DNA from: [Flavobacterium] thermophilum | GTDB taxonomy: Bacteria > Bacillota > Bacilli > Bacillales > Anoxybacillaceae | Length of the DNA stretch: 64,000 nucleotides | Direction: 5' to 3' | NCBI GenBank assembly: GCA_900450595.1 | Contig: UGGS01000001.1 | Span: 2,294,001 to 2,358,000 of the forward strand | In this document: positions 17,319-57,189 of the stretch, one piece after another | How the letters are laid out: every line of letters starts with the position of its first letter | Position numbering within the stretch: the stretch's first letter is position 1 | Position numbers and translations under genes: made by a program | The notes under the pieces: generated by a model | What the model was told of the DNA's origin: nothing | The model's input: the letters and a program-made list of their open reading frames with translations, nothing else | The model's database searches: none

Positions 17319-19277
17319 TCAGCGGAAGATGGCGCGAAGGCCGTCGATATAAATCGCTCCGGCGTTTTTCCGTCCGATATCCGTTTCCATATAACGAACC
17401 GGCATCTCCAGCATGAGCGGAAGCGCGACATCGCTAGGCACAGCGGCTTGCACATATTTCCAACCGGTCCAATTGACATGGCGGGCAAAATCGATCCAGA
17501 TGCGGCGCCCGCTTCCATCCCGCAGCTGGGCGCGCAGCCAATGGCCGCTTCCGTCTCCATACACCCACATGCCAATCGCTTGCGGCCGTTTCGAAATCCA
17601 AATCGCTTCCTCCCGACTAGCATAGACGCCGGATGTCCCTGGCATCCCGCGAAAATCATATGAAATTTTCAGCGCCTGCTTTCCTTCTCTCACCTTTTCT
17701 GTCGTCCGCTCGACCGCAGCCCCCACATAGTTGACGCCCGATGCATTCCACTTCGACTCCGTTTCAAAGTCATCAAGCACTTCTTCGCTTTCCCCGTTCT
17801 CTTGCGTCTCTTTGTACACAACAAGAAGCGCATTCGCCACCGGACGCGCAAATCCATCAGACGGTTTGTTTTCGACTTTGAGCTGCCCATTTGGCTGGCG
17901 GACGACAAATGTCGAAGAACCGCCGCCATCGAGCGTCATCGCATCGACGGCGCCAAGCTCATGCATCAGCTTGGCCAGCTCATTCAATGTCATTCCTTGG
18001 CTATGGGCAGGCTGGCGGCCATCGACAACGACGAGCATGACATTTCCGTTCTTGTCAATGCCGACGGCTGTACGCGGATGGACTCCTTTAATCGAAAACG
18101 GCTGCACTTTTCCATCCGCCACCAACCGGTATCGGCCGCCGAGCGCTTCTTTCACCCCACTCCATTCGGGCTGGTCATACTGAAGGGAAATTTCCACCGC
18201 ATCCCCTTCTTTCGCCTGCCGCAAATAGTCACTCGCCCGGCCATGGCCCGACAACACGAGCTCTCCAGGCTGGAGCGGTTCATTGCCTTGACCGACTACA
18301 ACTTTCTTCACCGTTCCGGTGACCGTTCCATTTCCGTTCAACACCCCTTGTACATTCGTCAGCACGACTTCCGTCCCAAGAGCGTTCGTTTTCGTGGAAG
18401 CAGCGAAATACGGGGTGTACAAAATCAACTGATGAGCGCGCCGCGGCTTGTTGATGCCATCGACGGGATATGAGCTTCCTTGTCCAATTCGAACGCCAAT
18501 TTGAACATCTGGGTTTCCAATCATCGGCTTCCCATCAGCGCTGATGCCAAAAATCGTCCGTTCCGCCGCCGGCGTCGTATTTGTTATCACAATTTCCCCA
18601 CGGTGCACCATCAAATCGGTCGGCGAACCATCCTGTTTGAAATAATCGCCGTTCACCGCCGCCAGCACGGTTCCGTCGCGGCCATCGTACCGTTTTGCCT
18701 GCTCAAGCACCGGTTCAATGCCAAGCACTTGATCATTGGACAGCGCCGTCTCAATGACCAGCCTCTCATTCGACGTATCGATGTCAAGCTTGTACACGTG
18801 CTGCTTGCCGCGCGTTCCGACGATTTCCATTTCCTCTTTTTCCACCCCAGAGGCGATGCGCGTCGACACTTCCTTTACCACTGTGCCGACCGCCAGCTGC
18901 CTTGCCCCATACTTCCCCGGATTGACAAGCTTCAGCTTCTCCCTCGACGGCGTTTTATACACAACATGCCCTTTGATATTGGTGACGTAATATCCACCGC
19001 CAACCCCGTATTGGCCGCCAAACGCCTCGTCATACGAATACACCCGGTACTGTTCTCCAGGCTGCAACACGCGGACAAACGTCAGCGCCCCGTTTTCCCG
19101 TTTCCATAGGTTAATCGGTTTCACGATCTCCAATTTTCCAATTTGCCCCTGCACAAGGCGCATGCCTTCCCAGTAAACGACATTCGCTCCGGCATCCGCT
19201 TCTGGCGCTTGCAGCGCCGTCCATGCGGCCAACACCGCCCCGACCCCAATGCGGATGATGTTCTTCGCTTTTCCCAC
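17319..19277 (-). CDS. Exported phosphodiester glycosidase (NAGPA) with N-terminal wall-associated module
   Basis: 652 residues, GTG start. Signal peptide at 1-30. Residues 33-120 hold the module shared by five genes of this window (WEGMRLVQGQIGKLEIV to KTPSREKLKLVN). The NAGPA/phosphodiester glycosidase domain covers about 165-490: AAVNGDYFKQDGSPTDLMVH, HPRTAVGIDKNGNVMLVVVD and DAMTLDGGGSSTFVV are its conserved blocks. Residues 500-652 form a beta-rich region resembling a carbohydrate-binding jelly roll (DDFETESKWN to AIYIDGLRAIFR). Enzymes of this family act on sugar-phosphodiester bonds, and teichoic acid or SCWP remodelling is a likely role. Confidence 0.8.
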   Translation of the reverse strand: MGKAKNIIRIGVGAVLAAWTALQAPEADAGANVVYWEGMRLVQGQIGKLEIVKPINLWKRENGALTFVRVLQPGEQYRVYSYDEAFGGQYGVGGGYYVTNIKGHVVYKTPSREKLKLVNPGKYGARQLAVGTVVKEVSTRIASGVEKEEMEIVGTRGKQHVYKLDIDTSNERLVIETALSNDQVLGIEPVLEQAKRYDGRDGTVLAAVNGDYFKQDGSPTDLMVHRGEIVITNTTPAAERTIFGISADGKPMIGNPDVQIGVRIGQGSSYPVDGINKPRRAHQLILYTPYFAASTKTNALGTEVVLTNVQGVLNGNGTVTGTVKKVVVGQGNEPLQPGELVLSGHGRASDYLRQAKEGDAVEISLQYDQPEWSGVKEALGGRYRLVADGKVQPFSIKGVHPRTAVGIDKNGNVMLVVVDGRQPAHSQGMTLNELAKLMHELGAVDAMTLDGGGSSTFVVRQPNGQLKVENKPSDGFARPVANALLVVYKETQENGESEEVLDDFETESKWNASGVNYVGAAVERTTEKVREGKQALKISYDFRGMPGTSGVYASREEAIWISKRPQAIGMWVYGDGSGHWLRAQLRDGSGRRIWIDFARHVNWTGWKYVQAAVPSDVALPLMLEMPVRYMETDIGRKNAGAIYIDGLRAIFR

Positions 19278-19374
19278 TGGTCCCCTTTTCCTCTCTTTCT
19301 ATCATTTTGTTGCAATCGATTCTATTATACGACAAACTTCTACAAAATGGGGGATCTTTTTCCATTTATCTGGT

Positions 19375-19404
19375 CAAAAAAAAATGTCCCAGCACTGCTG
19401 GGAC
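19375..19404 (-). terminator. Terminator of the CAP protein gene
   Basis: GTCCCAGCA / TGCTGGGAC (19386-19404) form a 9-pair stem with a single-base loop region; on the minus strand it is followed by a run of U (complement of the A-run 19376-19384). It lies about 30 bases after the stop codon at 19435. Confidence 0.88.
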
Positions 19405-19434
19405 GCTCTTGAGAAGCGAAAGGATCATCCGCGG

Positions 19435-20667
19435 TCACGGAGCATAAAACTCTTGAGAGTAGTAGGGTTGATGGAATGAATTGAACGCGACCCCGACGCC
19501 AAGGCGGGTAAAGTCCGGGTATAAAAGATTTTGCCGATGCCCGAGCGAGTGCATCCACGCTTCATGGACAAAAATCGCATCGTATTGTCCGTAGGCGATG
19601 TTCTCGCCCGCCACGCGATAAGCGATGCCATGGCGCTTCAGACGGTCAAACGGCGACAGGCCTTGCAAGTTCGTATGAGAGAAGTAGTGATGGACCGCCA
19701 TATCTTCGCTATGTTCACGGGCGGCCGCCGCCGCCTTCGCATCCCACGCGAGCGCCGGAAGCCCGTGCAAGCGGCGCGCCGCGTTTGCTAAATCAAAAAT
19801 TTGATATTCATAGGCCGTGCGCAGCTCCTCCGTCGTCGTTCCGTAAAACCCGGGCTTTTCATCCTCGAGCGCCCGATTGACGACAAGCACGCCATCCACC
19901 CGGTTGTTGTTGTACCGGTCATAAAAGAAGGTGACGTAGCGGCCGTTGACAAGATAGGTCCCGTATTCGTCATTTTGAATGTCGTAGACGGCATCCTTTT
20001 TTTGGATGAAGGCGAGCGGCCGGCCGTAGCGCGCTTCCACCACCGTTTTCGCCGTTCCGATGCCCGTTCCTTTTTTCGTTTGGACAATCGGCTGATTCGT
20101 GTACATCGCCGCCACCCGATCACGGTCATAGCTCACCATCAAAAAGTTTTTGTAACCGCCCTGATCATACGCCTCCCAATATAGGCCGTAGGCGTTTTTC
20201 GTCTTGCGCTTCGCCTTGCCGTACATCGCTTCGACCTTCGCGCGCGAGTCGCCGATCGCCACCCCGTTCATCGTGACATCCGCCATGCTTGTTTTCGCCT
20301 GCTGCACGCATAAAGCAGCGGCCAACTTCTCTCTTGACGGCGTTTCATAGCGGACGCGGGCATCGTTCTTGATCCCATATCCTCGGCCGACACCAAAATA
20401 GCCGCCGCCTAGCGCGTACACGCGATACACCGCACCGCTTGGCAGCGTCTTCACTGCTTTGTTCGACAACCATAGCTCTGTCGGCGCCACCACCGTCACC
20501 CGGCCGATTTGCCCGGGCTTCAGTTCAGCACCGTCCCACCACACTTTTTCCGTGCCGACACGTTCTCCGCATCCCCCCGCCTTGACCATGGATGAACTCG
20601 GCATCCAAAGCCATCCGGCCGCCGCCAACAGCATTCCAATTGCCACGGCCTGCACCCATTTCCTCAC
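19435..20667 (-). CDS. Exported CAP-family protein with N-terminal wall-associated module
   Basis: 410 residues, GTG start with AAGGAG nine bases upstream. Signal peptide 1-31. Residues 42-118 are the shared module (WWDGAELKPGQIGRVTVV to YETPSREKLAAAL). Residues 130-260 resemble the CAP-associated N-terminal domain (MNGVAIGDSRAKVEAMYGKA, IQNDEYGTYLVNGRYVTFFY). The C-terminal CAP/SCP domain at about 285-408 contains HSEDMAVHHYFSHTN, FDRLKRHGI, AGENIAYGQ, HSLGHRQNLL and FTRLGVGVAF. Bacillus CAP proteins (YkwD-like) are secreted and poorly understood; some bind wall components. It has its own terminator. Confidence 0.85.
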   Translation of the reverse strand: MRKWVQAVAIGMLLAAAGWLWMPSSSMVKAGGCGERVGTEKVWWDGAELKPGQIGRVTVVAPTELWLSNKAVKTLPSGAVYRVYALGGGYFGVGRGYGIKNDARVRYETPSREKLAAALCVQQAKTSMADVTMNGVAIGDSRAKVEAMYGKAKRKTKNAYGLYWEAYDQGGYKNFLMVSYDRDRVAAMYTNQPIVQTKKGTGIGTAKTVVEARYGRPLAFIQKKDAVYDIQNDEYGTYLVNGRYVTFFYDRYNNNRVDGVLVVNRALEDEKPGFYGTTTEELRTAYEYQIFDLANAARRLHGLPALAWDAKAAAAAREHSEDMAVHHYFSHTNLQGLSPFDRLKRHGIAYRVAGENIAYGQYDAIFVHEAWMHSLGHRQNLLYPDFTRLGVGVAFNSFHQPYYSQEFYAP

Positions 20668-20829
20668 TTCCGCCCGCTCCTTCCTTTCTCTTTTTCTTTC
20701 ATCATAGAGGTCTTTCCGTCAAAAGAAAAGAGAAAAAAGAATGATTTCGAAGAAAAAGAGGGGGCTTTGGTGGCGCAAAGGTCAACATTTCGTCAAACAA
20801 GCTTCTCAGTGTGAGTAAAATATTTGTGG
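20668..20829. other. Gap between the CAP gene and the ISLre2-type element
   Basis: The first bases are the ribosome binding site and probable promoter of the minus-strand CAP gene. I see no coding frame, repeat or clear promoter pair in the remainder. Confidence 0.5.
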
Positions 20830-20848
20830 GTGACATTCAGGAATGATT

Positions 20849-20892
20849 CCCCGACGAGGGTTGCGAACTTTTGTTCGCGACGCTCGTCGGGG
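20849..20892. terminator. Hairpin at the 5' end of the ISLre2-type element
   Basis: CCCCGACGAG (20849-20858) and CTCGTCGGGG (20883-20892) form a 10-pair GC-rich stem, with a second inner stem TTGCGAAC / GTTCGCGA. Such hairpins at IS ends reduce read-through transcription and translation of the transposase from outside promoters. Confidence 0.55.
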
Positions 20893-20998
20893 CCACCAAG
20901 CGAAGCGCGGTAGAAAAAAGCAAATGTCATGCAAAAAGGACTCTCTCCCTGCTATGATGGTGATGACCAACATCCATAAAACAGGAGGGAGAGAGTCC

Positions 20999-22366
20999 AT
21001 GAAACATCTTACCACAGAATGGCCTTTATTAAAAGAGCTGGAGGAACAATTAGTCAGAACTCTTCAAAAGGTGTTCGCTGTCTTGTTGGCGGCCCTTTTG
21101 GAGGAGATTGATCAACAACTGGCGGAAGCGCGGGACAAGCGCCGGTATCAGCTGAAAGACAAACGGCCGACCACGATCCAAACGCTGTTTGGAGAAGTGA
21201 CGTTTCGACGGAACTACTACTATGATCGGCAGGCGGGGGCGTATACCTTCTTGCTGGATGCCGAACTGGGCTTTGATGGAGCGCAGTCGATCAGCCCTTG
21301 CCTCGAGGAAACGGCGGTCGAGTTGGCCGTAGAGTGCTCTTCCTACCGCAAAGCAGCCCGTACGTTGGAGTCGATCGTGGGGTATGCGGTCCTAAGCCAC
21401 GAGGCGATTCGCCAACTGGTGCTGGAGGCCCCTGTCTCGCTGCACCACCCTGTTTCCCAACGGCACGGCCGAGTGCTGTTTGTGGAGGCGGATGGGCTGT
21501 TCATTTCCCGCCAGGGGAAAGGGAAACGGGCGAAAGAAGAGAAAATCCTGGCGGTTCACGAGGGATGGAAACGAAACGGTTCGCAGCTCGAGCTCGTGAA
21601 CCGGCGCCACTACCTCCATGAAGGGGCGGGAGACGTGTGGGAACGGTTTGAAGAGTGGCTGATGAACGAATATGCCTATGACCCGTGCCGGGACCTTTTG
21701 ATCATCAACGGCGACGCGGCGTCGTGGATCACGGCCTGCCGGGAGTATTTTGGGAAGCGGGCGTGCTTTCAGCTGGATCGATTTCATGTGGCGCGGGAGC
21801 TGCGTCAGTGTCTGTCCGGCCATCCGCGTTGGCGGGAGGTGCGGAAGAAGCTGGCGAAACAAGACGAAGAAGGACTTTTGGTCGAGCTGAACAGCGCGGT
21901 CGGCACGTTGGAGGACGAAGGCAAAGAACAACAGCTGGCCGCCTTGATTCGCCGGATCGAGTCGATGCCGGGATGCATCCGGGACTATCGGGAGTGGCTG
22001 TCGGAGCAAGGGGTGGAGACGACCGGCATGCGTCCGATGGGCCACGCCGAGAGCGTGATGAGCCGGTTTGCGCATCGGGTGAAATCCCGCCGCAGCTGGA
22101 AAGACCAAGGGCTTCGGGCGTTTCTGAGGGCGATGGCAGCCCGAATCGACGGGATTTGGCGGAGAAATGGGCAGTTGGTGGAGGAAGAAGAGACCCGAAC
22201 GGCGGCCTCGGCCTCAACAAAGTCCAAGCGGATCGAACAGGCCAAACGGAAGGCCGGACGGTTATGGGCAGATGTGGTGCGTCAGAATCTACCGTGTCTG
22301 CAGCGGTCATCCGGGACGCCGATCCATCAAGCGTTGTCGGCGCTCCGGGATGGTGGTTGGGTGTAA
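20999..22366 (+). CDS. ISLre2 family transposase
   Basis: 455 residues from the ATG at 20999, chosen because AGGAGGGAGAG lies just upstream; the open frame runs further 5' without another good site. Sequence features are those of the ISLre2/UPF0236 family: LFGEVTFRRNYYYDRQAG near the N-terminus, VEADGLFISRQGKGKRAKEEK, then LLIINGDAASWI, CFQLDRFHVAREL and GMRPMGHAESVMSRFAHRVK. The Asp residues in VEADG and INGDAA and the Glu in GHAESV are plausible DDE residues. The gene appears intact and the element may be active. Confidence 0.88.
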   Translation: MKHLTTEWPLLKELEEQLVRTLQKVFAVLLAALLEEIDQQLAEARDKRRYQLKDKRPTTIQTLFGEVTFRRNYYYDRQAGAYTFLLDAELGFDGAQSISPCLEETAVELAVECSSYRKAARTLESIVGYAVLSHEAIRQLVLEAPVSLHHPVSQRHGRVLFVEADGLFISRQGKGKRAKEEKILAVHEGWKRNGSQLELVNRRHYLHEGAGDVWERFEEWLMNEYAYDPCRDLLIINGDAASWITACREYFGKRACFQLDRFHVARELRQCLSGHPRWREVRKKLAKQDEEGLLVELNSAVGTLEDEGKEQQLAALIRRIESMPGCIRDYREWLSEQGVETTGMRPMGHAESVMSRFAHRVKSRRSWKDQGLRAFLRAMAARIDGIWRRNGQLVEEEETRTAASASTKSKRIEQAKRKAGRLWADVVRQNLPCLQRSSGTPIHQALSALRDGGWV

Positions 22367-22445
22367 AAAAATGGAATACAATATCATCACCTCAAGATGA
22401 GGGATGAGGGTCCGAAAGCGCTTACGATATGAATTCCTGAAAATG

Positions 22446-33743: not shown

Positions 33744-34079
33744 TTACTCCCCATTCACCAACTTCAACTTCTCCTTTGACGGCGTTTCGTAGCGGATGTG
33801 CGTGTCGATGTCGGTCACGTAATACCCGCCGCCGACCGCGTACTGCCCGCCGAAGCGCGCGTCATACCCGTAGACGCGGTATACTTCCCCAGGCTTTAAG
33901 ATGCGGACGAACACAAGGCGCCCATCCTTCGTCCGTTTCCATAGATTGATCGGCTTTTGCACCGTCAAGCGGCCGATTTGCCCTTTTTTCAACTCCACGC
34001 CATCCCAGTAGACTTTTTTCACTTGGCCTGGAGGAGTGGTTGGCTTTCTCGGTTTCTCTTTTGGTTTCGATGGAGACGA
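33744..34079 (-). pseudogene. C-terminal wall-associated module of amylopullulanase, out of frame
   Basis: Translated from 34079 this gives SPSKPKEKPRKPTTPPGQV followed by the ~85-residue shared module (VYWDGVELKKGQIGRLTVQ to YETPSKEKLKLVNGE). The same linker and module end the nucleotidase gene at 40793. The amylopullulanase frame is shifted here by one missing base near 34080, so it ends in an unrelated basic tail. An ATG at 34022 could in theory start the module alone, but without a signal peptide. Confidence 0.8.
33762..34046. repeat. 285-bp direct repeat, copy 1 (module-coding DNA)
   Basis: Aligns base for base, without gaps and with only scattered changes, to 40811-41095. Both copies are in the same orientation and encode the linker end and the wall-associated module. 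They flank the amylopullulanase-amylase pair about 7 kb apart. Confidence 0.88.
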
Positions 34080-37000
34080 GGCGCTTCGTTTCCCGGTGGA
34101 GCTGTGCCGCCCGGCGGAACGCTCCCCCCAGGGGATGCGCCATCCGATGGACCACCGCTGCCCGGAGAGGTGCCGTTGCCTGGCGTTGCCCCTCCGTCAT
34201 GGGACGGCGTTTCGCTTCCTGGAGAATCGCCGTTGCTTGGCGGCGTTGTCAACTTCCCTTCACGCAATTGCTTCGTCTCCAAATTTAGCACGTAATCTTT
34301 CGTATTTTTCGCAATGGCTCCACCGTCGTTTTTGAACACGGCTGCTTTGCTTTCCGCTGACGGTTCGATATGGATCGCCACTTCTTTTTGCTGCGGAGCC
34401 GGCGTAAAGGTGTAGACAAATGCCATCTGATCATTGATCGGCACCCGCTCGCCATTGATCGTCAACACGCCGTTTTTAATGGCATTGCCCTTGATCGTCA
34501 CTTGACTCCCTTGTTTTTGCACCTCTTCGATGACAACCGGCATATCGATCCAGCGCAAAATGCGGTCTTCCACAACCATCGTATTGTTTCCTTCATTGTG
34601 AACGGTCACTTTCAACTCCGTGCCGATCGAGCCGTATCCATAATAACTGACATCATCATCCCCATTGTCTGCAGGCGTATGATCAGCCAGTCCTTCCTGA
34701 TCCCACGACCCGCCTTTCACATACTTATACGTGATCGTTTCCCCTTCTTGCACTTCAGTTGTAAATTGCCAATCAGGCGTCACCGCTCCATTGCGCGACA
34801 TTTCCCATGCCCCTGTGTTCCAGCCATTCAAACTGTTCGGAATCGTAATTCGGGCATCTAACGGCGTATAGTCTGGGGCTTTGACTTTAAAAATGACTTT
34901 CACCATCACAATGTCCGGCTTCACTTTGACCGTGTTGGACGCGGTGACATTTCCAGCGCGGTCATACAGCTTGACAACGTACGCATACTCGGTGCCGTTT
35001 TCGACCCCGTAATCAACGAACGATGTGCTGATGGATGTCGTCATATGAATGACTGTTCCATTGCGTTCGATGACTAGCAAGTATGCATCCGCATCATCTT
35101 TTCCTACAAACTGCCATGACAAATGAACTTGCCCTGACTCAACAGGCGGCGGCGTCAGCTCAATCGCCTCGGCCGGCGCTTTTTGGTCGCTGGAGTCGGC
35201 CGCAAACGTCACTTGTTTGGCTTCCGTATACACCCAATTCTTACCAAGGTTGGTCGTCAGCGCGTAGCGATACGTATACGTCCCTGCCACAAGCGGGGTG
35301 AAGGCGGCACGGAACACATTAGCGTCGCCATCTTGCCCTTGGTAAACCGCTCTATATTCTTTCCATGCTTCGTCATGCGGCCCTTTCACTTGCAGCACCG
35401 CTTGCAACCCATCGGCTGCTCCTTTGCTTGTCACACCGTCGATGTTCACTTTGACATCGATTGGTTGGGGCTGGGACAAGTCGAGTGTGGCATCGCTTAA
35501 CGTGGTCACGAACTGGACATTGTCGCTCGTCAGCGGATAATGAGGAACGACGCGATTCGTTTCCACCTTTGGCGACTCATTCCCGTTCTCATCGACGGCG
35601 GTAACGGCAAAGTAATACGCAGTCCCGTTCGCCAACGAATCGATCGTCACGGAAGTCTCGTTCGTTTCCACCGCTAACGTATAACCAGCCCCTTGAATGG
35701 TTGATTGGTACACCCGATACTTCGACGCTTGCCCTTCCCAAGTAAGCGTCACGCGACCAACCGCGGCGCTTGCCTGCAAATTTCTGACCGCGGCAGGCAT
35801 TTCTGCCGTCACCGTCCCAAACATCATCCGTCCATCCATCGCCGGAACAGTGACCTTCAATGTTCCGCCGGCGACTGCGGCCGTTACGCCGTCATGCAAC
35901 TCATCCGTGAGTACGGTGCCATTCGGAAGCAAAGAAGCGACATCCAATGTCACCGTTTTGTCCGCATCACCGCGGTTGACGGCAATGAGCGCCACGTCAC
36001 GACCGTATTGGCGGGCAAAGACGTATACATCCCCTTGCGCATACACGGTCTTGATGTCGCCATGGGCCAGCAATGACGAATGATGTTGACGAATTTGGCC
36101 GACTTTTCGATAGTGCGCCAACAAGTTTTGGTCTTCGCTGCCCCACGGATAGGTGCGGCGGTTGTCCGGATCTTTTGAGCCTGTTACTCCCGCTTCATCG
36201 CCGTAATAAATCGTCGGCGCTCCCGGGTATCCCATCTGCAAAATCACCGCCAGCTTGAGCCGCTTTTTCCCTAGCTCCTCACGATAATTCGGATCCAGCT
36301 CCGCCCGCTCGGATGAATCCGTTCCGTTCCCAAGCAGAAAGACCGCCCGCGCCGTGTCATGGGAACCAATTAAGTTCATCAGCGCATAAAACGCTTCACT
36401 TGGGTAGTCTTCTCTTATGGCCGTCAGCCGTTTGTCCGCCTCTTCCGCATTTCCGTTTTTCAAAAAGTCAAGCACCGCCCCGCGGAACCGGTAGTTCATC
36501 ACGGAATCGTACTGGTCGCCTAGAAAATATTTCGATGCGTCATCCCAAATTTCCCCTAAAATGAGCGGCTGCTCCCCTTCTTTTAACGTCGGACCGCGGT
36601 CGTACGACCCTTGAAGCAATTCTTGGCGGAACTCGCGCCAAAACGCCGGATCCACCTCATTGGCCACATCGAGCCGCCAGCCGGAGGCGCCGCGGGCAAT
36701 CCAGCTTTTCGCCACCGAATCCGGTTCGCGGAAAATGTAGTTCGCGAGCGCATCGTTGTTCAATTCACTCGGATGCGGCACTTTTTCCCCCGTCACCGAC
36801 TTAAACTCCGGCAAGCTGTCATAGCCCCACCATGACTGATACTTATAACGACCATCGACTTTTTCGTTTTCAATATTGAACCAAAGGTGAAACCCATACG
36901 GGCTGAACGTCTGTCCCTCTTGTTTGAACTTCTCTTCCACTTGTTTCCGCGCTTCTTCCTCGCTCAATCCTTTTTCATTCATCAAATCGTAAACCGCTTC

Positions 37001-38674
37001 CCAATATTCATACGCGCCGACGGTCGGATAGCGGTGGTAACGGTCGAAGTAAATCGAATCATCGGATACGTGGTTGAACACGCCGTCTAAGATGAGATGC
37101 ATCCCCCGTTTCGCCAGTTCCTGAACAAATGCCTGAAACTCTTCCGGCGACCCAAACATCGGATCGAGTTCTTTGTAATTGCTTGCGTCGTATTTATGGT
37201 TCGAGGGCGCCGTGGCGATCGGGTTTAAGTAAATCGTGTTCACCCCAAGCGACTGCAAATAATCCAACTTCTGTCTAATTCCGGCGATGTCGCCGCCGAA
37301 AAAGTCGTTCGACCATTCGCCGTCGCCATCATAGCCGCTCGTCCCTTTCAAGCGCGGATTATCGGGCAACTCCGACCAATCGCGATGCTCAATCGGCTGC
37401 GCCCCGCGTGCCTGCTTCTTGCTGTTATCATTTGAAGGGTTGCCATTAAAGAACCGATCCGGGAAAATTTGATACACAACCGCTTCTTTCATCCAGTCGG
37501 GCGTCCTGTAATCCGGATCATACACCGTCAGTTGAAACAGCTCCGCGCGGCTGTCCACCGCTTTCCCCCATTGCCCTTCTTGCGTATCTTCGCCGTATTC
37601 CACTTTCGTTCCGGCATCTTGCGCTATAAATTTATACCCGTACACCCCGGGCGTCGAAGGGGTGAACGCCACCTCCCAATATTCATCGTCCCCGAGCACG
37701 CCGACTTTTTCCATCGTGTAGACGTTGGCCGTGCCGGTCGTCGTATTTTTCACATACACATCCGCTTTCGTCAAATCGCCTTTTTTCGCCGCTAAGCGAA
37801 GCGTCACCTTCGTTCCCGCTTTCACCGCCCCAAACGGCTGGCGGTACAGCGCATCCCATGTGTTATGCTTGAGCCGCTCTTTTTGAACGATTCCATCTGA
37901 ACCTTGCGGGCGATAATCGGTATAGACCTCTTTCGTCTTCGCATTGAAAAAGAACGTGATAGTGGAAGGCTCCAACACGTTTAACCGTGCATTGTCTTGC
38001 GGATAGTTTTCATCCCAATTGGTTCCAAGCACGATTTTGTATTCATAAGATCCTTTCGGCACCTGCGCCGTCAACGCATAAACGGAGTCAAAATCGTCAT
38101 CCTTGAGAAAGGCCGTCGATGTGGCTGGAGTCCAACCATTATTGTCTGTCTCACGACCGATGGCCGGCAATACGGTTCCGACCAAACACGGCTGTTTTTC
38201 CTTTGGAATCGGCGCATACCAAGTCGAGTCAGCGATGGCATGAGTGCGATCATGGTAGTAAAACGTTACCTTTGTCGGCTCGTTCAATGTCAATGTAAGA
38301 TTTCCGCCGTTGCGCCCACCAGCACCGTAGTTTTCATCCCAGCTGCCGTTGATGGCGATTTTGTACTCATACGTCCCCGCCGGCAGCGCCCCCGTCAACG
38401 TATAAAGCCCATCGCCTTCATGATGCATCACGGTCGCTGTAGCCGACGGATCCCATTCCTTCGTATGGCCCAACTCATCTTGCAAATTGCCGACTAGCGT
38501 GATCGTCCGTGGCTGCGAGGCCGTGGATTCGGCCGTCCACCGATGCGCTCCATTCCCTAGAGCGCTAGAACTTCCTGCCTCGTTCGCAGCGGCAACCGCC
38601 TGGAAAGGAGTCAATGCCAGCAACAACACCGATGCCAAAACCAATGATAGCATTCTCCTTGCCCTCTTGATCAT
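34019..38674 (-). CDS. Secreted amylopullulanase-type GH13 enzyme (frameshifted near its 3' end)
   Basis: 1551 residues from the ATG at 38674. Signal peptide 1-31. Two X25-type modules (about 45-150 and 155-255: YEYKIAINGSWDENYG, YEYKIVLGTNWDENYP), an N-domain, then the GH13 barrel (about 395-850) with DGVFNHVSDDS, GWRLDVANEV (nucleophile Asp), LILGEIWDDA (acid/base Glu) and LIGSHDTAR. After it come FN3-like domains (about 980-1300), a starch-binding-like domain (TIPNSLNGWNTGAWEMS) and a Gly/Pro/Ser linker. The true C-terminus, a wall-associated module, lies in another frame (see 33744). With one base restored the protein would have about 1643 residues, close to known Geobacillus amylopullulanases. 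Expressed divergently from amyS under shared sugar control. Confidence 0.9.
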   Translation of the reverse strand: MIKRARRMLSLVLASVLLLALTPFQAVAAANEAGSSSALGNGAHRWTAESTASQPRTITLVGNLQDELGHTKEWDPSATATVMHHEGDGLYTLTGALPAGTYEYKIAINGSWDENYGAGGRNGGNLTLTLNEPTKVTFYYHDRTHAIADSTWYAPIPKEKQPCLVGTVLPAIGRETDNNGWTPATSTAFLKDDDFDSVYALTAQVPKGSYEYKIVLGTNWDENYPQDNARLNVLEPSTITFFFNAKTKEVYTDYRPQGSDGIVQKERLKHNTWDALYRQPFGAVKAGTKVTLRLAAKKGDLTKADVYVKNTTTGTANVYTMEKVGVLGDDEYWEVAFTPSTPGVYGYKFIAQDAGTKVEYGEDTQEGQWGKAVDSRAELFQLTVYDPDYRTPDWMKEAVVYQIFPDRFFNGNPSNDNSKKQARGAQPIEHRDWSELPDNPRLKGTSGYDGDGEWSNDFFGGDIAGIRQKLDYLQSLGVNTIYLNPIATAPSNHKYDASNYKELDPMFGSPEEFQAFVQELAKRGMHLILDGVFNHVSDDSIYFDRYHRYPTVGAYEYWEAVYDLMNEKGLSEEEARKQVEEKFKQEGQTFSPYGFHLWFNIENEKVDGRYKYQSWWGYDSLPEFKSVTGEKVPHPSELNNDALANYIFREPDSVAKSWIARGASGWRLDVANEVDPAFWREFRQELLQGSYDRGPTLKEGEQPLILGEIWDDASKYFLGDQYDSVMNYRFRGAVLDFLKNGNAEEADKRLTAIREDYPSEAFYALMNLIGSHDTARAVFLLGNGTDSSERAELDPNYREELGKKRLKLAVILQMGYPGAPTIYYGDEAGVTGSKDPDNRRTYPWGSEDQNLLAHYRKVGQIRQHHSSLLAHGDIKTVYAQGDVYVFARQYGRDVALIAVNRGDADKTVTLDVASLLPNGTVLTDELHDGVTAAVAGGTLKVTVPAMDGRMMFGTVTAEMPAAVRNLQASAAVGRVTLTWEGQASKYRVYQSTIQGAGYTLAVETNETSVTIDSLANGTAYYFAVTAVDENGNESPKVETNRVVPHYPLTSDNVQFVTTLSDATLDLSQPQPIDVKVNIDGVTSKGAADGLQAVLQVKGPHDEAWKEYRAVYQGQDGDANVFRAAFTPLVAGTYTYRYALTTNLGKNWVYTEAKQVTFAADSSDQKAPAEAIELTPPPVESGQVHLSWQFVGKDDADAYLLVIERNGTVIHMTTSISTSFVDYGVENGTEYAYVVKLYDRAGNVTASNTVKVKPDIVMVKVIFKVKAPDYTPLDARITIPNSLNGWNTGAWEMSRNGAVTPDWQFTTEVQEGETITYKYVKGGSWDQEGLADHTPADNGDDDVSYYGYGSIGTELKVTVHNEGNNTMVVEDRILRWIDMPVVIEEVQKQGSQVTIKGNAIKNGVLTINGERVPINDQMAFVYTFTPAPQQKEVAIHIEPSAESKAAVFKNDGGAIAKNTKDYVLNLETKQLREGKLTTPPSNGDSPGSETPSHDGGATPGNGTSPGSGGPSDGASPGGSVPPGGTAPPGNEAPRLHRNQKRNRESQPLLQAK

Positions 38675-38733
38675 CCCCCGCTCCCTTCTCCTTTGTTTGG
38701 CCAACTTCCTTCTCTCCTTTCCTTTTTATATTC

Positions 38734-40792: not shown

Positions 40793-43120
40793 TTACCATC
40801 CATTTGCTTGCTTCAACTTCTCCTTTGACGGCGTTTCATAGCGGATGTGCGTGTCAATGTCTGTTACGTAATACCCGCCGCCGACTGCGTACTGCCCGCC
40901 GAAGCGCGCATCATACCCGTAGACGCGGTACACTTCCCCAGGCTGTAAGATGCGGACGAACACAAGGCGCCCATCCTTCGTCCGTTTCCATAGATTGATC
41001 GGCTTTTGCACCGTCAAGCGGCCGATTTGCCCTTTTTTCAGCTCCACGCCATCCCAGTACACTTTTTTCACTTGGCCTGGAGGAGTGGTTGGCTTCTCCG
41101 ACTGCTTTGGCGGGTTGGGCTTTTCTTCCTTCCAAAGCGGCAAGGCAAATTCATATTGAGCAAATCCGCTCGGCAAGGCGGTGACATAGCGGATGCTGCC
41201 GTCTTGCGGCAAGTATTTTTGCGCTTCCGGCGACGATTCAAACGTGACGGTCACCGGCGCTTTCCCTTTCACTGGCGCAAACCGCCAGTTGCCGTCCGCC
41301 GATGGGTTAATCGTTCCGTTTTCCCGAATGTAATCGATGATCACTTGCCGGTTTTCATCCGGCGCGGCCAAAATCGTGTTTTTCCCGCCCGGATTGATGA
41401 TCCGGTTCGTCGTCGCCCGATAGTTGTTCGTTGCGACAACAAACTCCATGGTCGGCGTCACTGGCTTGCCTTCGAATCTCAAGTTTTTAATCCGATTCGC
41501 TTTCGGGTTGATCACATTTTGGTTTTTGTCGTATTTCGCCGGCTCGGTAACATCGATCTCATACGTCACGCCATCAATAATGTCGAAGTTGTACGTCGGG
41601 AAGTCGTTGTTGACAAGCGGCTGAACGTCTGTCTTGTTCGGGTCGATTTGGTTGAATTGCCCCGCCGACCACTCAAGCCATTCTTTCAACTCGGCTCCCG
41701 TAATTTTCAACGCATACACCGTGTTCGGATACAAGTACAAATCGGCGACGTTTTTAATGGCGATTTCCCCTGCCGGGATGTCGGTATAATAGCTCGCCCC
41801 GCCGCGTCCGCCGGCTTTGAACGGAGCACCGGCCGACAGCACCGGAAGGCCTTCATACTGCGTCCCTTTTAACATTTTTTCCACATACCACTTTTGGGCG
41901 TTCGTGACGATTTGCACGGACGGATCGTCTTTGATAAGCGCAAAATAGCTGTTGATCGGGCTCGTTGTTTTTCCAACCGGGCTGCGGACGTACTGAATCG
42001 TCGCTTCATGTTCCGCTTGGATCGCCTGCTCCACGGCCGGGTCGCTGTCAACCAACGGCGTTTTCGTCGCCTTGTCGTACACCGGGCGAAGCTGGGCTTT
42101 CGCTTGTGTCACTTTCCATTTTCCATCGATTTGCTCAACCGTCAAATCAATAACCCCAAGCGTATCGCCCCACGCCCCCGGCATCGTCACCGGAACACCG
42201 TTGATCGTGCCTGTTTCATTGTTGATACCGTTCCCATCCGGAAAATCGGGCGTCGTTCCCGGAAGCGCCGGAAATTTTTTATGCTGGTGGCCGGTCAACA
42301 CGGCGTCGACCCCCGGAATTTGCGTCAAATAATAGGAGGCGTTTTCCATATTCGGGCTGTTTCCGCCGGTCTCAATGCCCGAGTGCGATAGCACAACGAT
42401 CAAATCGGCCCCTTCCGCTTTCATTTTTGGAATATACTTTTGCGCCGACTGCACAATGTCTTTCGCAATCACTTTCCCTTGCAAATTCGCTTTGTCCCAA
42501 TCCATAATTTGCGGCGGCACAAAGCCGATGACGCCGATCTTCAGCGTATGCTTCTCCCCGTCTTCATCAACGACTTCTTTCGCTAAAATTTGATACGGCG
42601 TGAAATAGTTGACATCGTTATCCGGATTTTGGTCATGATCGTCACGGTACACGTTCGCATTCACGATCGGCAGCTTGGCATCGTCATACACTTCATTGAG
42701 GAAATCCAAGCCATAGTTGAACTCATGGTTCCCAACCGTCGCCGCATCGTACTTCAACAAATGCAACAGTTTCACCGCTGGATGCACTTCGCCGTCTTGC
42801 AGCGGCTTCACTTTCGCCACATAGTCGCCAAGCGGCGTTCCTTGAATCAAATCCCCGTTGTCAAACAGAAGCGTATTCGGCTGCTCAGCGCGCGCCTGCT
42901 CGATCAAACGCGCCGTCTTCGACAACCCAAACTCATTCGTCGGACTATCTTTGAAATAATCGTAGTTGACGAGATTCATATGTACGTCCGTCGTCTCTAA
43001 AATGCGCAGCTTGACGACATCTCGGTCTTCCGCGCCCGCTGCGGTCGGCAACACAGCCGGAGCAAGCAGCCCCAACGCCAACACCACGCTCGCCGCCGCG
43101 TATTTCTTCCGTTTTTTCAA
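40793..43120 (-). CDS. Exported 2',3'-cyclic-nucleotide 2'-phosphodiesterase/3'-nucleotidase with C-terminal wall module
   Basis: 775 residues. Start is a TTG at 43120, five bases after GAGGGGGATGGGCA; the nearby ATG is out of frame. Signal peptide 1-31. Metallophosphatase domain (about 35-340): ILETTDVHMNLVNYDYF, FDNGDLIQGTPLGDY, VGNHEFNYGLDF, GHQHKKFPALPG. 5'-nucleotidase C-terminal domain (about 370-600) with GGRGGASYYTDIPAGEIA. The linker KPTTPPGQV and the ~85-residue shared module close the protein (residues 690-775). CpdB-type enzymes release nucleosides from RNA breakdown products at the cell surface. An IS1634 element sits in its promoter. Confidence 0.9.
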   Translation of the reverse strand: MKKRKKYAAASVVLALGLLAPAVLPTAAGAEDRDVVKLRILETTDVHMNLVNYDYFKDSPTNEFGLSKTARLIEQARAEQPNTLLFDNGDLIQGTPLGDYVAKVKPLQDGEVHPAVKLLHLLKYDAATVGNHEFNYGLDFLNEVYDDAKLPIVNANVYRDDHDQNPDNDVNYFTPYQILAKEVVDEDGEKHTLKIGVIGFVPPQIMDWDKANLQGKVIAKDIVQSAQKYIPKMKAEGADLIVVLSHSGIETGGNSPNMENASYYLTQIPGVDAVLTGHQHKKFPALPGTTPDFPDGNGINNETGTINGVPVTMPGAWGDTLGVIDLTVEQIDGKWKVTQAKAQLRPVYDKATKTPLVDSDPAVEQAIQAEHEATIQYVRSPVGKTTSPINSYFALIKDDPSVQIVTNAQKWYVEKMLKGTQYEGLPVLSAGAPFKAGGRGGASYYTDIPAGEIAIKNVADLYLYPNTVYALKITGAELKEWLEWSAGQFNQIDPNKTDVQPLVNNDFPTYNFDIIDGVTYEIDVTEPAKYDKNQNVINPKANRIKNLRFEGKPVTPTMEFVVATNNYRATTNRIINPGGKNTILAAPDENRQVIIDYIRENGTINPSADGNWRFAPVKGKAPVTVTFESSPEAQKYLPQDGSIRYVTALPSGFAQYEFALPLWKEEKPNPPKQSEKPTTPPGQVKKVYWDGVELKKGQIGRLTVQKPINLWKRTKDGRLVFVRILQPGEVYRVYGYDARFGGQYAVGGGYYVTDIDTHIRYETPSKEKLKQANGW
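40811..41095. repeat. 285-bp direct repeat, copy 2 (module-coding DNA)
   Basis: Partner of 33762-34046, same orientation, no gaps. Here it is in frame with the nucleotidase gene. Confidence 0.88.
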
Positions 43121-51476: not shown

Positions 51477-51483
51477 CTAGTTC

Positions 51484-52450: not shown

Positions 52451-52551
52451 CTTCACCTTTTCTCCCCCCTTTTTTGTCATATTTGCAACAGGCTCATCTG
52501 CCCCCAACAAAATGACGAGCAATCTCCGTTCATGCATCATTAAGGATTCTT

Positions 52552-53070
52552 TCAACAAAAACAAGCAAACTCCTGCATATGAATGAAAAAAAATAGAGGC
52601 CCAACCAATGTTTCTCTGTTTCGATTAATCCTCGAGTGGATCCTTCCTGCCTCCACGAGCCTTTTTGTCACTTCAATGTCTTCCCTCGACGGCTCGCAAT
52701 GACCGCTCGGATGGTTATGGGCAACGATGATGGAAGCCGAATTGGAGAGAATGGCAGCCTTCATCACCTCCCTCGGATGCACGATACTAGCGTTCAGGCT
52801 TCCGACATGGCAAACGTTGATGGCAGTCGGCTGGTTTTTCGTGTCAAGGCAGACAACGACAAACTTCTCACGGTCTGCTTCCACAAGAAACGGCTTCAAC
52901 AGCCTGTACGCATCTTCCGGAGATTTGATTTGACGCTCCTTGTACAGCACGCTAGACTCACGAACAAGCTTCAGGCTGACAATGTTGACACGCTTCGCTG
53001 GCTACTTGGAAGACACCTCCCTTTCTAGCAACTCTAGCTGTTGGTGATTGATGGTTTGATACTTGCTCAT
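52552..53070 (-). pseudogene. radC: radC-like JAB/MPN-domain gene with an amber stop and a lost C-terminus
   Basis: The ATG at 53070 follows GGAGGGAAAAGG. Codon 23 is TAG; the frame then continues without break as PAKRVNIVSLKLVRESSVLY and into the MPN domain: VCLDTKNQPTAINVCHVGSL, NASIVHPREVMKAAIL and the metal site AHNHPSGHCEPSREDIEV. The usual end (about 20 residues after LVEAG) is replaced by an unrelated tail, RIHSRINRNRETLVG onward. An internal GTG at 52950 would leave only the MPN part. RadC-like proteins of this short type are common on mobile elements. Confidence 0.88.
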
Positions 53071-53190
53071 CCTTTTCCCTCCTAAAACAAAAATAGCCCC
53101 AATTCCCCGAAAGGAATTGAGGCACCATGACTGTAGGTTCAAAATCATAATATATATTTGAAATCAAGCTTAATACAGATTCGGGCAAAA

Positions 53191-53230
53191 AGAAAAGCCC
53201 CGCAGAGATTTCTCTCCGCAGAGCTTTTCA
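53191..53230 (-). terminator. Terminator of the S-layer gene
   Basis: On the minus strand GAAAAGCTCTGCGGAGA and TCTCTGCGGGGCTTTTC pair along about 16 positions around GAAA, followed by U-rich sequence. Lies 36 bases after the stop codon. The nuclease gene at 22998 carries a variant of the same hairpin. Confidence 0.9.
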
Positions 53231-53265
53231 ACATTTCAAATGGTGACAAAGGCACCAGTTCTTAA

Positions 53266-56037
53266 TTAGTTAGTAGTAAAGTTAGTTACAGGAATTGGTG
53301 TAGTGATTTCTGTCAAAGGATTATCTGCTTTATCTGTTGTCGAGTCAAGGTTCGTTTGTGCGTCAGTATCTAATGTAAACCCAAGAGTACGGTCCGCATT
53401 ACCAAGGCTAGTTACAGGAATTTCAGCAGAAAGTCCGTCTGCAGAAAGCACAGCAGTTCCTAAAGTAATTCCTGTTGCAGCAGTAGATGCATTTGCTTTA
53501 CCTGCAAGGACAAAGTCTGCTGCATTAACAACTTTCATAGCTTCAGAGAACTTCACAATAAGTTTGTAACCATTTGTAGCATTACCAGTAATATACGCTT
53601 CTTTAACGACAGGCTTAGTAGCATCTACAACGGCAACTGGAAGGCTAGTTAATGGTAAAATAGCCCCGGCAGCGTTTTTAACACCGCCAACAGAAATTGT
53701 TGCAGTACCACCATTACCGAATGCTGCATATGGACCAACTAAGTCCTTAGCATCAACTTCTGAAAGGTCAATTGTAACTGTATCTACAACAACTGTGTCT
53801 GACTTATCTCCATCTTTGTTTAAGTCAGCACCAACTGTTGCTTCGGAGACAGATTGGTCATTGTTGAATGTAACTTTTGCCTTAGCTGGAAGAGCAGCTC
53901 CATTGATTGAGTAAAGTGCCTTATTGTCTGCACCATCAACGTATAGGTTACCTGTAGCACGGTTGACTCCAGCTAGAACATCATTCTTATCGAAAGTTAC
54001 AGTAACTGTCCTAGCTGCAGAAGTTACACCAGCAGATTGGATATATGCTGAAAGTGGTGCAACTGGAGTAACAACTTCTTTATCATTAGTGATAGTTAAG
54101 ACTTGTGCATCATTAGTGTTAGATGAATCATCAGAAACTCCATTAACTTTCAATACTAAGCTATAGCTTCCATTTTTCAATGAGCCTGCAAGAGCAAGCT
54201 TATATTTATTCGTTCCAGCAACAGGAGTTACACCAGAAACTGTTGTCGCAGATGTACCATCTTGTTTGTTTACAAAGAAGTCTCCAGCTTCAACACCTGT
54301 TACAGCTTCTGAGAATTCTACCTCGATTTCATTAGCAGCTGTAAATTTAGCTTCTTTGATAGCTGGTTTCACAGTGTCACGAACAAGTGTTACTTGTGAA
54401 GTTTTAGTGTCAACCACATTACCAAGTTTATCTTGAAGAGCTTGTACAGTAACATCAAGTGTTGCAGAGTTTACAGTAGCATCTGCAAATGGAAGTGCAG
54501 CAAGCTCAACAACAAGTGTACGTTTATCATCTTTGAATGATGGAAGAGCTTTAAGTGCTACAGCATTACCTTTAGCATCTTTAACTTTGATTGAATCAAC
54601 TGCTACAGCAGTGTTCATTTCTTTATCAAACTTGATTTCGAATGTCTTAGGACCAACTGCGTTAATAACGAAGTTTGGTTTTACAGCATCTTTCGTAACT
54701 ACGATAGAAGCACGTTCTGGTGTTCCACCTTTGTTACCAGCAAGGTCAGTTAATCCGTAAACTTCAACTTCATATGATTTACCAACTTCAAGTTCTTTAC
54801 CAGAAACAGTGTAAGTGAAATCGTCAACTTTAGCAGCACCTAGGATAGAATCTCCAACTTTAATAGTTGTGAATGAAACTGGCTCTGAGAATTTAAGTGT
54901 AAATGAATTAACTTTATCATCTTTTGTTACTGCAGATGCAGAAACAATCTTAGGAGCTACTGTATCTTCAACTGTAACATCTTTAAGGAATGAAGGAACT
55001 TTTTCACCGTTTACAGTTTCTAATTTAACACCTGTTACACGGTATTCTGCTTTTTGCTCAAGAGCAGATGAAAGTGTAATAATTACAGTTTTTCCATCTT
55101 CTGAAAGCCCTACTGAAGTGATTGTAGCGTCAGCATCTGTTGCAGATTTTGTAACTTTAAAGTTAGCTGCAACTACAGTATCTTTTTTAAGAGCTTTGTT
55201 AAATTTTACTTCAACTTGTTTAAGGTTAATCGCACTTACACTCTCAACCTTCGGCGTCAATGCTGCTTCATACGCCGCCTTGGCGTCTTGTGCTGCTTTT
55301 TGCAGTTCAGCTTTGAACGCATCGGTTACTTTCGATACGTATTGGTTGACTTTGTCAAGCGCGGCTTTCGCTTTGTCCAAGTTGCCGGCTTTGACAGCGT
55401 CTTGCGCTTCACGAGCTTTCATGGCAACGGTGATGTCGTAGATCAAGCTGTCGCGCAGTTTTTGCGCTTCGTCTTTGAATTGCGAGCGAAGCAGTTCGCG
55501 CGTCGTTTGGCCGTAGACGCGATCCAGGATGACCGTGCGCGTTCTGAGCTCGTACGAAATTTTGTGGTAGAGCTCTTCTGCCTTTTTCAAGTCTTTTGCT
55601 TCGACAGCTTTCGCCAGATCTTGACGCAGACCGTCAAGCTTGACTGCGTAGTTGTAAGCGTCGATGTACGTAGCCACGCGCGCTTCGCCCGATTTCGGGT
55701 TGGCTTTGAATACATACGTTTCGTATGTAGCTTGCAAATCAGCCAAATACGCGTCTTTTTTCGCGCCGCCGGCTTTGTTCACGACAGCAACCGCGTTTGC
55801 ATACGCTTTTTTCGCTTTGTTGTAGGCGTCGTATACGTCGTTGATGTTCGGGAGTTTGCCCGTTTCCGTTACCGTGTGGCTGTACGCATAATACGCTGCT
55901 TTAAATTGCGCTTTCGCTTGGCTGACGACCGTCGCCACGTCCGTTGCTGCTTGGGAAGTGTGCGGGTTGGCTGCGACGAAAGCGCTCGCTGCTACAGCGC
56001 TGGCTGTGGCGAGTTTGACTGCTTTCTTTTTGTCCAT
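53266..56037 (-). CDS. S-layer protein, SbsC type
   Basis: 923 residues from the ATG at 56037 (GAAGGGGG 12 bases upstream), which gives MDKKKAVKLATASAVAASAF, the start of SbsC-type proteins. Signal peptide 1-30, mature ATDVATVVSQAK. Residues 31-262 are the helical polymer-binding domain, nearly the same as in SbsC (YIDAYNYAVKLDGLRQDLAK, KAGNLDKAKAALDKVNQYVS). The remaining ~660 residues are Ig-like beta domains (for example DVTVEDTVAPKIVSASAV) that should form the lattice. There are no SLH motifs. The coding DNA is GC-rich for the first 262 codons and AT-rich after, a sign of domain exchange. Probable client of SecA2/SlaP. Confidence 0.93.
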   Translation of the reverse strand: MDKKKAVKLATASAVAASAFVAANPHTSQAATDVATVVSQAKAQFKAAYYAYSHTVTETGKLPNINDVYDAYNKAKKAYANAVAVVNKAGGAKKDAYLADLQATYETYVFKANPKSGEARVATYIDAYNYAVKLDGLRQDLAKAVEAKDLKKAEELYHKISYELRTRTVILDRVYGQTTRELLRSQFKDEAQKLRDSLIYDITVAMKAREAQDAVKAGNLDKAKAALDKVNQYVSKVTDAFKAELQKAAQDAKAAYEAALTPKVESVSAINLKQVEVKFNKALKKDTVVAANFKVTKSATDADATITSVGLSEDGKTVIITLSSALEQKAEYRVTGVKLETVNGEKVPSFLKDVTVEDTVAPKIVSASAVTKDDKVNSFTLKFSEPVSFTTIKVGDSILGAAKVDDFTYTVSGKELEVGKSYEVEVYGLTDLAGNKGGTPERASIVVTKDAVKPNFVINAVGPKTFEIKFDKEMNTAVAVDSIKVKDAKGNAVALKALPSFKDDKRTLVVELAALPFADATVNSATLDVTVQALQDKLGNVVDTKTSQVTLVRDTVKPAIKEAKFTAANEIEVEFSEAVTGVEAGDFFVNKQDGTSATTVSGVTPVAGTNKYKLALAGSLKNGSYSLVLKVNGVSDDSSNTNDAQVLTITNDKEVVTPVAPLSAYIQSAGVTSAARTVTVTFDKNDVLAGVNRATGNLYVDGADNKALYSINGAALPAKAKVTFNNDQSVSEATVGADLNKDGDKSDTVVVDTVTIDLSEVDAKDLVGPYAAFGNGGTATISVGGVKNAAGAILPLTSLPVAVVDATKPVVKEAYITGNATNGYKLIVKFSEAMKVVNAADFVLAGKANASTAATGITLGTAVLSADGLSAEIPVTSLGNADRTLGFTLDTDAQTNLDSTTDKADNPLTEITTPIPVTNFTTN

Positions 56038-56046
56038 AAAGCCCAA

Positions 56047-56409
56047 AATCCCCCTTCATTTTTATGAAACTTTAAGACAATGATCCTAAACGGCTGCCGT
56101 TTAGTAGATTCATTGCCTAAAAGGTGCTAACATCAACCAATATCATCCTTGACGGCTAGATGCTGGGCTGATTAGAAAGCCTAGCATCTGTTGCTAGCAC
56201 TTGAGCATAATTCCTCAATGCTCCACGTCTCCTATAGTAATACATTTTTTTTCTAAATTCTAGTCCTAAATACAAATTTTTTAGAGAATATGCCTTTGAA
56301 ATTATTGCCATCGATGGCGACATTGATATGAATATGCCTGTAACAGAAATTTAGAACGATATTTTGGCAGTTTGATGGTTTTGGTTGGCAAACATTTTGT
56401 GCAAAAACA
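56047..56409 (-). promoter_or_regulatory. Long 5' leader and promoter region of the S-layer gene
   Basis: A 363-base region without coding frames. The minus-strand RNA can form an outer stem (GTGCTAACA 56124-56132 with TGCTAGCAC 56192-56200, one G-U) enclosing a strong inner hairpin (AGATGCTGGGCT 56158-56169 with AGCCTAGCATCT 56178-56189). Further upstream an A/T-rich stretch with TACTAT near 56233-56240 may be a -10 box, but no -35 partner is clear. Long structured leaders are common on highly expressed S-layer genes and stabilise the mRNA. Confidence 0.6.
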
Positions 56410-57189
56410 TCAATCGTTTTTCTTCACCGTGACGTCCATCGGTTGGCCAAGCGTCATTTTGACGACGTCATAGCGGTCATTCAAGTACAAATCGAGAAAG
56501 CGGAACTGTCCTGCGAATTGTTCCGGACTGTTCGTGATGGAAAATTGCAGCTGCATTGCGTAATCGCCGCTGTTGGCGAGCTGTTCGGCGATTTTTTCGA
56601 TCTCTTCCTTCGGCACGTTGTACGCTTTTAAGTAAGAGATCGAGTCGGCGATCGCTTCGGCGTTGTCGTTGAAGAAAATGGAGAGCGTCACCGTTGCGCC
56701 GTCGATGCGGCCTTCAAGCGGCAATGACATATTTTGGCCGTATAAATACCAGCCGAACAGACGATTTCCTTTTTGCCGCTCAATGACGAACGGAACGGAT
56801 TCATTTCCTGCCTGAAGAATGTATTGCCCTTTCAATGAGCGGGCGACAAGGGCGAGAAGTTCGTCTTTTGTGAACGGCACGTATTGGATGGCGTCCCCTT
56901 GTTTGGCATACAGTCCGCCGCCGAGGCTGTAATAGACGGCGCCGCCTGCCCGTTTTTGGCTGTAGACGCGATACTCGCGCCCTTGTTTCGCCGTCATGGC
57001 GGTCTGCCATGCCGCTCCGTTCAGGCGGTATAGAGGCGTGTCGCGCAAAATGACGACTTTGCCGATCATGCCTTGTTTCCATTGGACTTGCCCCCATTGG
57101 ACGGCGGCGTCAACTGTTTGTCCATTTCCTCCGAGGGCGATGGCGGCGGCGAGGCAGATGGCAGCTGCCATTTGGAATGCATGTTTCAT
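56410..57189 (-). CDS. Exported protein with a divergent wall-associated module and unknown C-terminal domain
   Basis: 259 residues from the ATG at 57189, nine bases after AGGAGG. Signal peptide 1-28. Residues 30-112 are a divergent copy of the shared module (VQWKQGMIGKVVILRDTPLY, EYRVYSQK, GGGLYAKQG, PFTKDELLAL). Residues 113-259 have no recognised fold: beta-rich, with RLFGWYLYGQNMSLPLEGRI and a helical segment (NVPKEEIEKIAEQLANSG). It lies between the NlpC/P60 hydrolase and the S-layer gene, so a wall or S-layer role is likely. Confidence 0.6.
   Translation of the reverse strand: MKHAFQMAAAICLAAAIALGGNGQTVDAAVQWGQVQWKQGMIGKVVILRDTPLYRLNGAAWQTAMTAKQGREYRVYSQKRAGGAVYYSLGGGLYAKQGDAIQYVPFTKDELLALVARSLKGQYILQAGNESVPFVIERQKGNRLFGWYLYGQNMSLPLEGRIDGATVTLSIFFNDNAEAIADSISYLKAYNVPKEEIEKIAEQLANSGDYAMQLQFSITNSPEQFAGQFRFLDLYLNDRYDVVKMTLGQPMDVTVKKND

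Follow-up and report, generated by a model that had tools for sequence, protein, structure and literature searches.

SLH proteins bind a pyruvylated polymer (PMC8559796 and PMC2571106, in the portions consulted), and SbsC binds a negatively charged polymer of N-acetylglucosamine (GlcNAc), glucose and diacetamido-mannosaminuronic acid (PMC8559796, likewise in part). A polymer-binding domain is part of the S-layer protein itself in SbsC-type Geobacillus; how other surface enzymes are retained is less clear. Here we describe a module of about 85 residues that is present in five surface-protein genes, all copies on the minus strand, of a 64,000-nucleotide stretch of [Flavobacterium] thermophilum DNA (GCA_900450595.1, contig UGGS01000001.1, positions 2,294,001 to 2,358,000, forward strand), hereafter the window, from a genome of 3.73 Mb (G000). 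We consider it probable, though not strongly so, that the module is an SH3b/SLAP-like wall domain which would anchor its partner protein non-covalently via the acidic secondary polymer of SbsC-type strains. A literature search made without the module sequence, with most subscription journals outside its reach, listed no paper on the module by title or by the start of the abstract.

Five copies of one module

Three of the copies are N-terminal: copy 1 (18918..19178) at residues 41-127 of the open frame of the NAGPA protein, a phosphodiester glycosidase (17319..19277; PF09992, with a C-terminal CBM_11 match below cut-off); copy 2 (20308..20544) in a CAP protein (19435..20667; CAP_assoc_N, PF14504, and CAP, PF00188); and copy 5 (56842..57102), the most divergent, in the 56410 protein (56410..57216; function unassigned). 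The other two are C-terminal, attached by Pro-rich linkers: copy 4 (40796..41062) in a 2',3'-cyclic-nucleotide 2'-phosphodiesterase/3'-nucleotidase (40793..43120; NF006938, 899 bits, cut-off 486) and copy 3 (33750..34013), in another frame, after an amylopullulanase (34019..38704; X25, alpha-amylase, fn3 and CBM_20) whose own frame stops in the linker without the module. The sequence-only reading of this DNA had described one module in five different exported proteins with just this placement, and all five were located. Identity to the NAGPA copy was 45% for the CAP copy and 29% for the 56410 copy. Searched against the whole of G000, a profile of the five copies recovered its own rows, by construction, at E = 6.5e-47 to 5.5e-33, together with two copies outside the profile at 1.480 and 1.491 Mb (E 6.7e-37 and 3.6e-31), which lie far beyond chance. 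The genome thus has exactly seven copies by this profile. Hydrophobic N-terminal leaders were visible by eye, without a signal-peptide program, in all five window carriers, as would be expected of exported proteins, but the two further G000 carriers are phage-type proteins.

Exchange with SLH on the same enzymes

The amylopullulanases of G. stearothermophilus ATCC 12980 (P0007) and G. lituanicus (P0012) are 89.6% identical over 1507 residues and diverge in the linker; the module closes P0007, whereas P0012 closes with three SLH repeats. Those of G020 and G023 (89-97% identical in aligned parts) end like P0012, with the SLH matches in the same frames; the G023 gene is interrupted, with two frames about 1.7 kb apart. 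Three SLH repeats likewise end the NAGPA homologues of the SLH-rich genomes G040 and G035, and the homologue of G034 had, by eye, neither module nor SLH. In amylopullulanase both anchors are C-terminal, whereas in NAGPA the module, where present, is N-terminal and SLH C-terminal. Among the best 120 of 953 NAGPA homologues, 63 had the module, 14 had SLH and none had both; the corresponding counts for the best 120 of 195 amylopullulanase homologues were 4, 14 and 0, SLH being taken from a precomputed Pfam column and the homologues being closest relatives only and not independent. The nucleotidases of G020 and G023 (body 96% and 94% identical) carried neither anchor. These comparisons indicate that the module takes the place of the SLH domain (PF00395) on the same enzymes, amylopullulanase and NAGPA, in other strains.

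The two anchors appear unlike each other. No sequence similarity between them was found, and the SLH fold is helical whereas that predicted for the module is an SH3-like barrel. The window carriers gave no match to SLH, nor did any part of G000 at E<=0.001. For an SLH amylopullulanase, the part of PMC3709733 consulted gives activity in the cell-bound fraction and more in the extracellular fraction.

Association with genome type

In a family sample of 41 genomes, the module was found at E<=0.001 in 18 genomes and three of nine genera, and 16 genomes had two or more modules. At E<1e-20, SbsC_C was present in all 16 of these and in none of the other 25 (at E<=0.001, 16/16 versus 5/25). Conversely, at least ten SLH matches occurred in 0/16 versus 21/25 genomes and CsaB (E<1e-40) in 0/16 versus 22/25. 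The oxidoreductase of the polymer cluster (E<=1e-40) was found in 16/16 versus 3/25 (G018, G021 and G037), its match spanning stop codons in G014 and G015. Within the family, SLH goes with CsaB and the module with SbsC_C. The limits behind these counts were chosen after the tables were seen, and with genomes that share ancestry and genes that are linked, the p-values of the association should not be read literally.

There were exceptions. G011 had one module copy and 26 SLH matches, some SLH was present in 7/18 module genomes when any match was counted, and G018, G021, G037 and G038 had neither two modules nor ten SLH. In an order sample of 397 genomes the module was found at E<=1e-5 in 42 genomes and 22/135 genera, among the matches listed; SLH-rich genomes made up 0/20 of those with a best module E<1e-25 versus 11/22 of those with weaker modules, the SLH counts (up to 17) being at-least values. 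The link between module and genome type is thus phylogenetically clustered and loosens outside the family, which counts against the proposed anchoring via the polymer of SbsC-type strains.

Predicted fold, charge and sequence relatives

A fold prediction, which the sequence-only reading had proposed as a check, gave an SH3-like barrel with a predicted local distance difference test (pLDDT) score of 94 and a resemblance to wall-binding domains; the fold-match rows included the LysPBC5 wall-binding domain, the lipoteichoic acid (LTA)-binding domain of SlpA, and the SH3b domains of lysostaphin, ALE-1 and phage lysins. Foldseek rows for cyclic nucleotide monophosphate (cNMP)-binding regulators were set aside, as most had a root mean square deviation of 6-12 and none was among the 50 rows of VIA-align 2.

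The same reading had recognized no named family. This held insofar as no Pfam family matched the window modules at cut-off, PF03217 being silent even at E<1, and NCBIfam gave nothing over the isolated module; the module nevertheless lies at the edge of SlpA/SLAP (PF03217, IPR024968), the teichoic-acid-binding domain of Lactobacillus S-layer proteins and its closest named sequence family. Relatives straddled the PF03217 cut-off of 23 bits: P0003-P0006, relatives of the 56410 protein, scored 18.0-23.0, and G015 and G016 gave 23.9 and 23.4. A PF03217 search of 398 phylum genomes gave no match and is uninformative, its controls being silent too. Unlike SlpA/SLAP, which forms a tandem pair at the end of an S-layer protein, the module is usually single and N- or C-terminal, and it has two extra elements, a strap at the N-terminus (xWDGxELKxGQIG) and a helix at the C-terminus (TPSKxKL). 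Tandem module pairs were seen in proteins of other genera (L118, L120, L124 and L125). The module is like the SH3b wall-binding domains of phage lysins (LysPBC5 wall-binding domain, 6ilu; PlyPy; Ly7917; lysostaphin) in fold type and in standing at the C-terminus of endolysins, but sequence identity is 11-19% and the window modules had no Pfam SH3 match at E<1.

Several other leads were dropped. Comparison by hhalign of the module alignment (A4) with a 53-residue piece of 7qeh was not significant (E 0.0089, probability 4.6), and the only PDB match of the five-row profile was a ribosomal protein at E 0.21, taken as chance. A direct link to the S-layer assembly protein SlaP (window 13156-14058) was rejected, with no significant similarity (hhalign probability 0.3, E 0.21), and the name "SLAP domain-containing protein" (TIGR04398) was taken as a coincidence of abbreviation.

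For charge and partners, 156 open frames with 168 matched stretches, from the window and fetched stretches and including fragments, were grouped at 70% identity into 86 clusters. The largest has 33 members and merges the amylopullulanase, nucleotidase and NAGPA carriers, which are under-counted for that reason. The module had an isoelectric point above 8.5 in 36/38 rows of A4. Its median charge was +8.3 per 100 residues, compared with -0.4 in the rest of the carriers, and it was more basic than the rest of its carrier in 76/82 representatives (four with weak modules or short remainders being dropped). Such basic charge fits, but does not establish, an acidic polymer as the ligand.

The fold itself would also suit a peptidoglycan-binding SH3b domain of the lysostaphin type, recognizing stem peptides or cross-bridges independently of the secondary polymer. 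Lysostaphin, ALE-1 and phage-lysin domains were among the fold matches, SH3_3 was hit by 3/86 carriers, and some of the weakest profile hits looked SH3_3-like by eye. We regard this as unlikely. It leaves the family-level tie to SbsC-type genomes unexplained; SLH replaces the module in the same enzymes of close relatives, which should share their peptidoglycan; and among named families the nearest in sequence is SlpA/SLAP, with teichoic acids as the ligands of its SlpA_III domain.

Phage copies

The two G000 copies outside the window lie about 10 kb apart; their carriers are a protein of tail tape-measure type (phrog_4211, E 7.9e-155) and an amidase endolysin (PF01510), which points to a prophage. 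A tblastn search of a phage collection gave two records with the module, Psychrobacillus phage PVJ1 and Perkons. In PVJ1 an annotated lysozyme adjoining the holin consists of Amidase_2 and a C-terminal module, and a second carrier is annotated as a stress protein; the Perkons carrier is the tape measure. Of three loci on viral contigs, two encoded endolysins that PHROGs assigned to the amidase type (weakly for L250), and the third a long protein with the tape measure as its Perkons counterpart. The module is therefore the C-terminal domain of four amidase-type endolysins, one each from PVJ1 and the host genome and one from each of two viral contigs. Matches in L251, L252 and Perkons began at profile position 10-14, without the N-terminal strap. 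In tape-measure-type proteins the module was seen within the last part (L252, L254 and L036 3642-8645). A confinement of the module to this wall-polymer and S-layer locus and to exported host proteins, as first suggested, is contradicted by the copies elsewhere in G000 and by the phage-type carriers.

The phage copies also bear on whether the module might bind the S-layer protein lattice rather than the wall and so keep enzymes within the S-layer, a reading that the strict co-occurrence with SbsC_C at E<1e-20 among the 41 genomes would favor. Its presence in phage endolysins and tape-measure proteins, and in other genera (whose SbsC_C content was outside the comparison), makes this very improbable, and the basic charge and wall-binding type of fold suit a polymer better.

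Partners and distribution

The profile of the five copies, searched in relatives as the sequence-only reading had advised, found the module well beyond the window, and that reading's view of a portable unit with differing partners was supported. Among the 86 representatives (25 of 53 partner families listed), the Pfam partners were PdaC (9), CAP (8), DUF3298 (7), CAP_assoc_N (6), NAGPA (5), NlpC/P60 (4), M23, YkuD and transglutaminase-like (3 each), LysM (2), and GH18 and S8 (1 each), with others. One matched stretch was present in 76/86 and two or three in 10/86, and the module mostly stood either C-terminally or among the first 100 residues. Named module records covered 33 loci of Geobacillus, Anoxybacillus, Bacillus, Cytobacillus, Neobacillus, Psychrobacillus and others, and 10 plasmid records, of Priestia and Cytobacillus, matched the module. 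Three genomes of one genus (G188, G212 and G237) had 10-11 module matches each.

The occurrence of the module on enzymes that act on carbohydrates (amylopullulanase, NAGPA and GH18, for example) would allow a substrate-binding (CBM-like) or structural domain rather than an anchor, but this is the least probable reading of all, since the partner substrates are unrelated (nucleotides, starch, peptidoglycan and others) and SLH replaces the module in the same enzymes.

An additional carrier of about 265 residues, with no Pfam hit (L037 7618-8424 in G026), lies opposite the CAP gene in 8/9 SbsC-type genomes of the genus and is split in G029. The window represents the ninth, with a UPF0236 element (20834-22363) standing after the CAP gene in its place.

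Proposed role of the module

We propose that a compact SH3b-like (SLAP-like) module would recognize the acidic secondary cell wall polymer of GlcNAc, glucose and diacetamido-dideoxy-mannosaminuronic acid and hold its partner at the wall non-covalently. It would serve as a plug-in anchor for different enzymes, as SLH does in strains with pyruvylated polymer, and phages would place it at the C-terminus of amidase-type endolysins, presumably for aiming them. That the module binds the wall is highly probable; that its ligand is this polymer rather than peptidoglycan is moderately so. The wall- or polymer-binding unit of the sequence-only reading gains from the SLH exchange, the endolysin C-terminus, the SH3b-like fold, the basic charge and the SbsC-genome linkage, with binding itself a prediction; its third anchoring route beside SbsC-type domains and sortase is better described as the SLH counterpart in non-SLH strains. 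The module would accordingly be an SH3b/SLAP-like wall anchor in an uncurated variant; what is new is its exchange with SLH and its tie to genomes of the SbsC type. We give an even chance to a broader version, in which an uncurated anchor family is the SLH counterpart wherever the secondary polymer carries diacetamido-uronic acid, the polymer type encoded at the locus dictates the swap between SLH and module, phages follow on their endolysins, and polymer type can be read from a genome by means of the module.

Locus context

Polymer-type genes occupy 1550..10474 (minus strand): UDP-GlcNAc 2-epimerase (TIGR00236), a flippase-like protein (PF01943), hexapeptide transferase, nucleotide-sugar dehydrogenase (TIGR03026), GFO/IDH/MocA oxidoreductase, DegT-type aminotransferase and glycosyltransferase family 4, for a putative pathway. 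In the first 10 kb of the window the epimerase, nucleotide-sugar dehydrogenase and a repeat-unit polymerase scored above NCBIfam cut-offs, and the oxidoreductase, aminotransferase and hexapeptide transferase below them. As annotated, the set fits synthesis of diacetamido-dideoxy-mannuronic acid and is, we presume, akin to the Wbp/Wlb pathway. On the plus strand, SecA2 (TIGR04397) and SlaP (TIGR04399), both above NCBIfam cut-offs, lie at 10736..14061; this accessory Sec pair, of S-layer export in Bacillus anthracis, here adjoins an SbsC-type S-layer locus.

The SbsC-type S-layer protein (53266..56046, minus strand; PF18058 and PF22360) had no module in the profile search. Its polymer-binding region, which may recognize the same polymer, is unrelated to the module: PF18058 and PF22360 are absent over the module carriers and in the window fall on the S-layer protein, a single nucleotidase and a single small protein. 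The 5'-nucleotidase (26676-30110) has an SbsC_C domain, so the domain type of the S-layer protein itself also serves one enzyme of the locus.

The amylopullulanase copy

The out-of-frame position of the amylopullulanase module, already recognized from the sequence, was traced to the Pro/Gly-rich linker, which relative to the in-frame copy of G026 has a 22-base gap immediately ahead of the module; P0007-P0009 also keep the module in frame. The gap may be either a natural lesion or an assembly error. In the amylopullulanase of Geobacillus sp. C56-T2 (P0010) the module is strongly diverged (53 bits versus 118 in P0007-P0009).

In four genomes, the module of the amylopullulanase was 92-98% identical in DNA to that of the nucleotidase in the same genome, with 65-68% for the NAGPA copy. 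In G022 the pair reached 98.1%, compared with 89.0-97.3% for its nucleotidase copy against other genomes. Such likeness within genomes suggests that the module was recently copied or underwent gene conversion.

By the title of a 2009 paper, the HMMA amylase of ATCC 12980 reportedly binds cell wall components by three regions. The mass of HMMA, which we take to be 184 kDa, agrees with that computed for P0007 (183.9 kDa). The identity of the two is an unconfirmed lead, and HMMA binding was not counted as evidence. In the portion consulted, PMC4428132 assigns a secreted amylopullulanase to strains described as lacking HMMA, and its authors therefore treat the two as different.

Implications

If the proposed role is correct, one portable 85-residue anchor, exchangeable with SLH and common to phage lysins, would explain the retention of enzymes on SbsC-type cells, and the window strain, its amylopullulanase module lost from frame, is predicted to release that enzyme. 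The module would be of use both as a thermostable display tag and as a polymer probe, and the naturally swapped enzymes would make the question of whether the polymer dictates the anchor directly testable.

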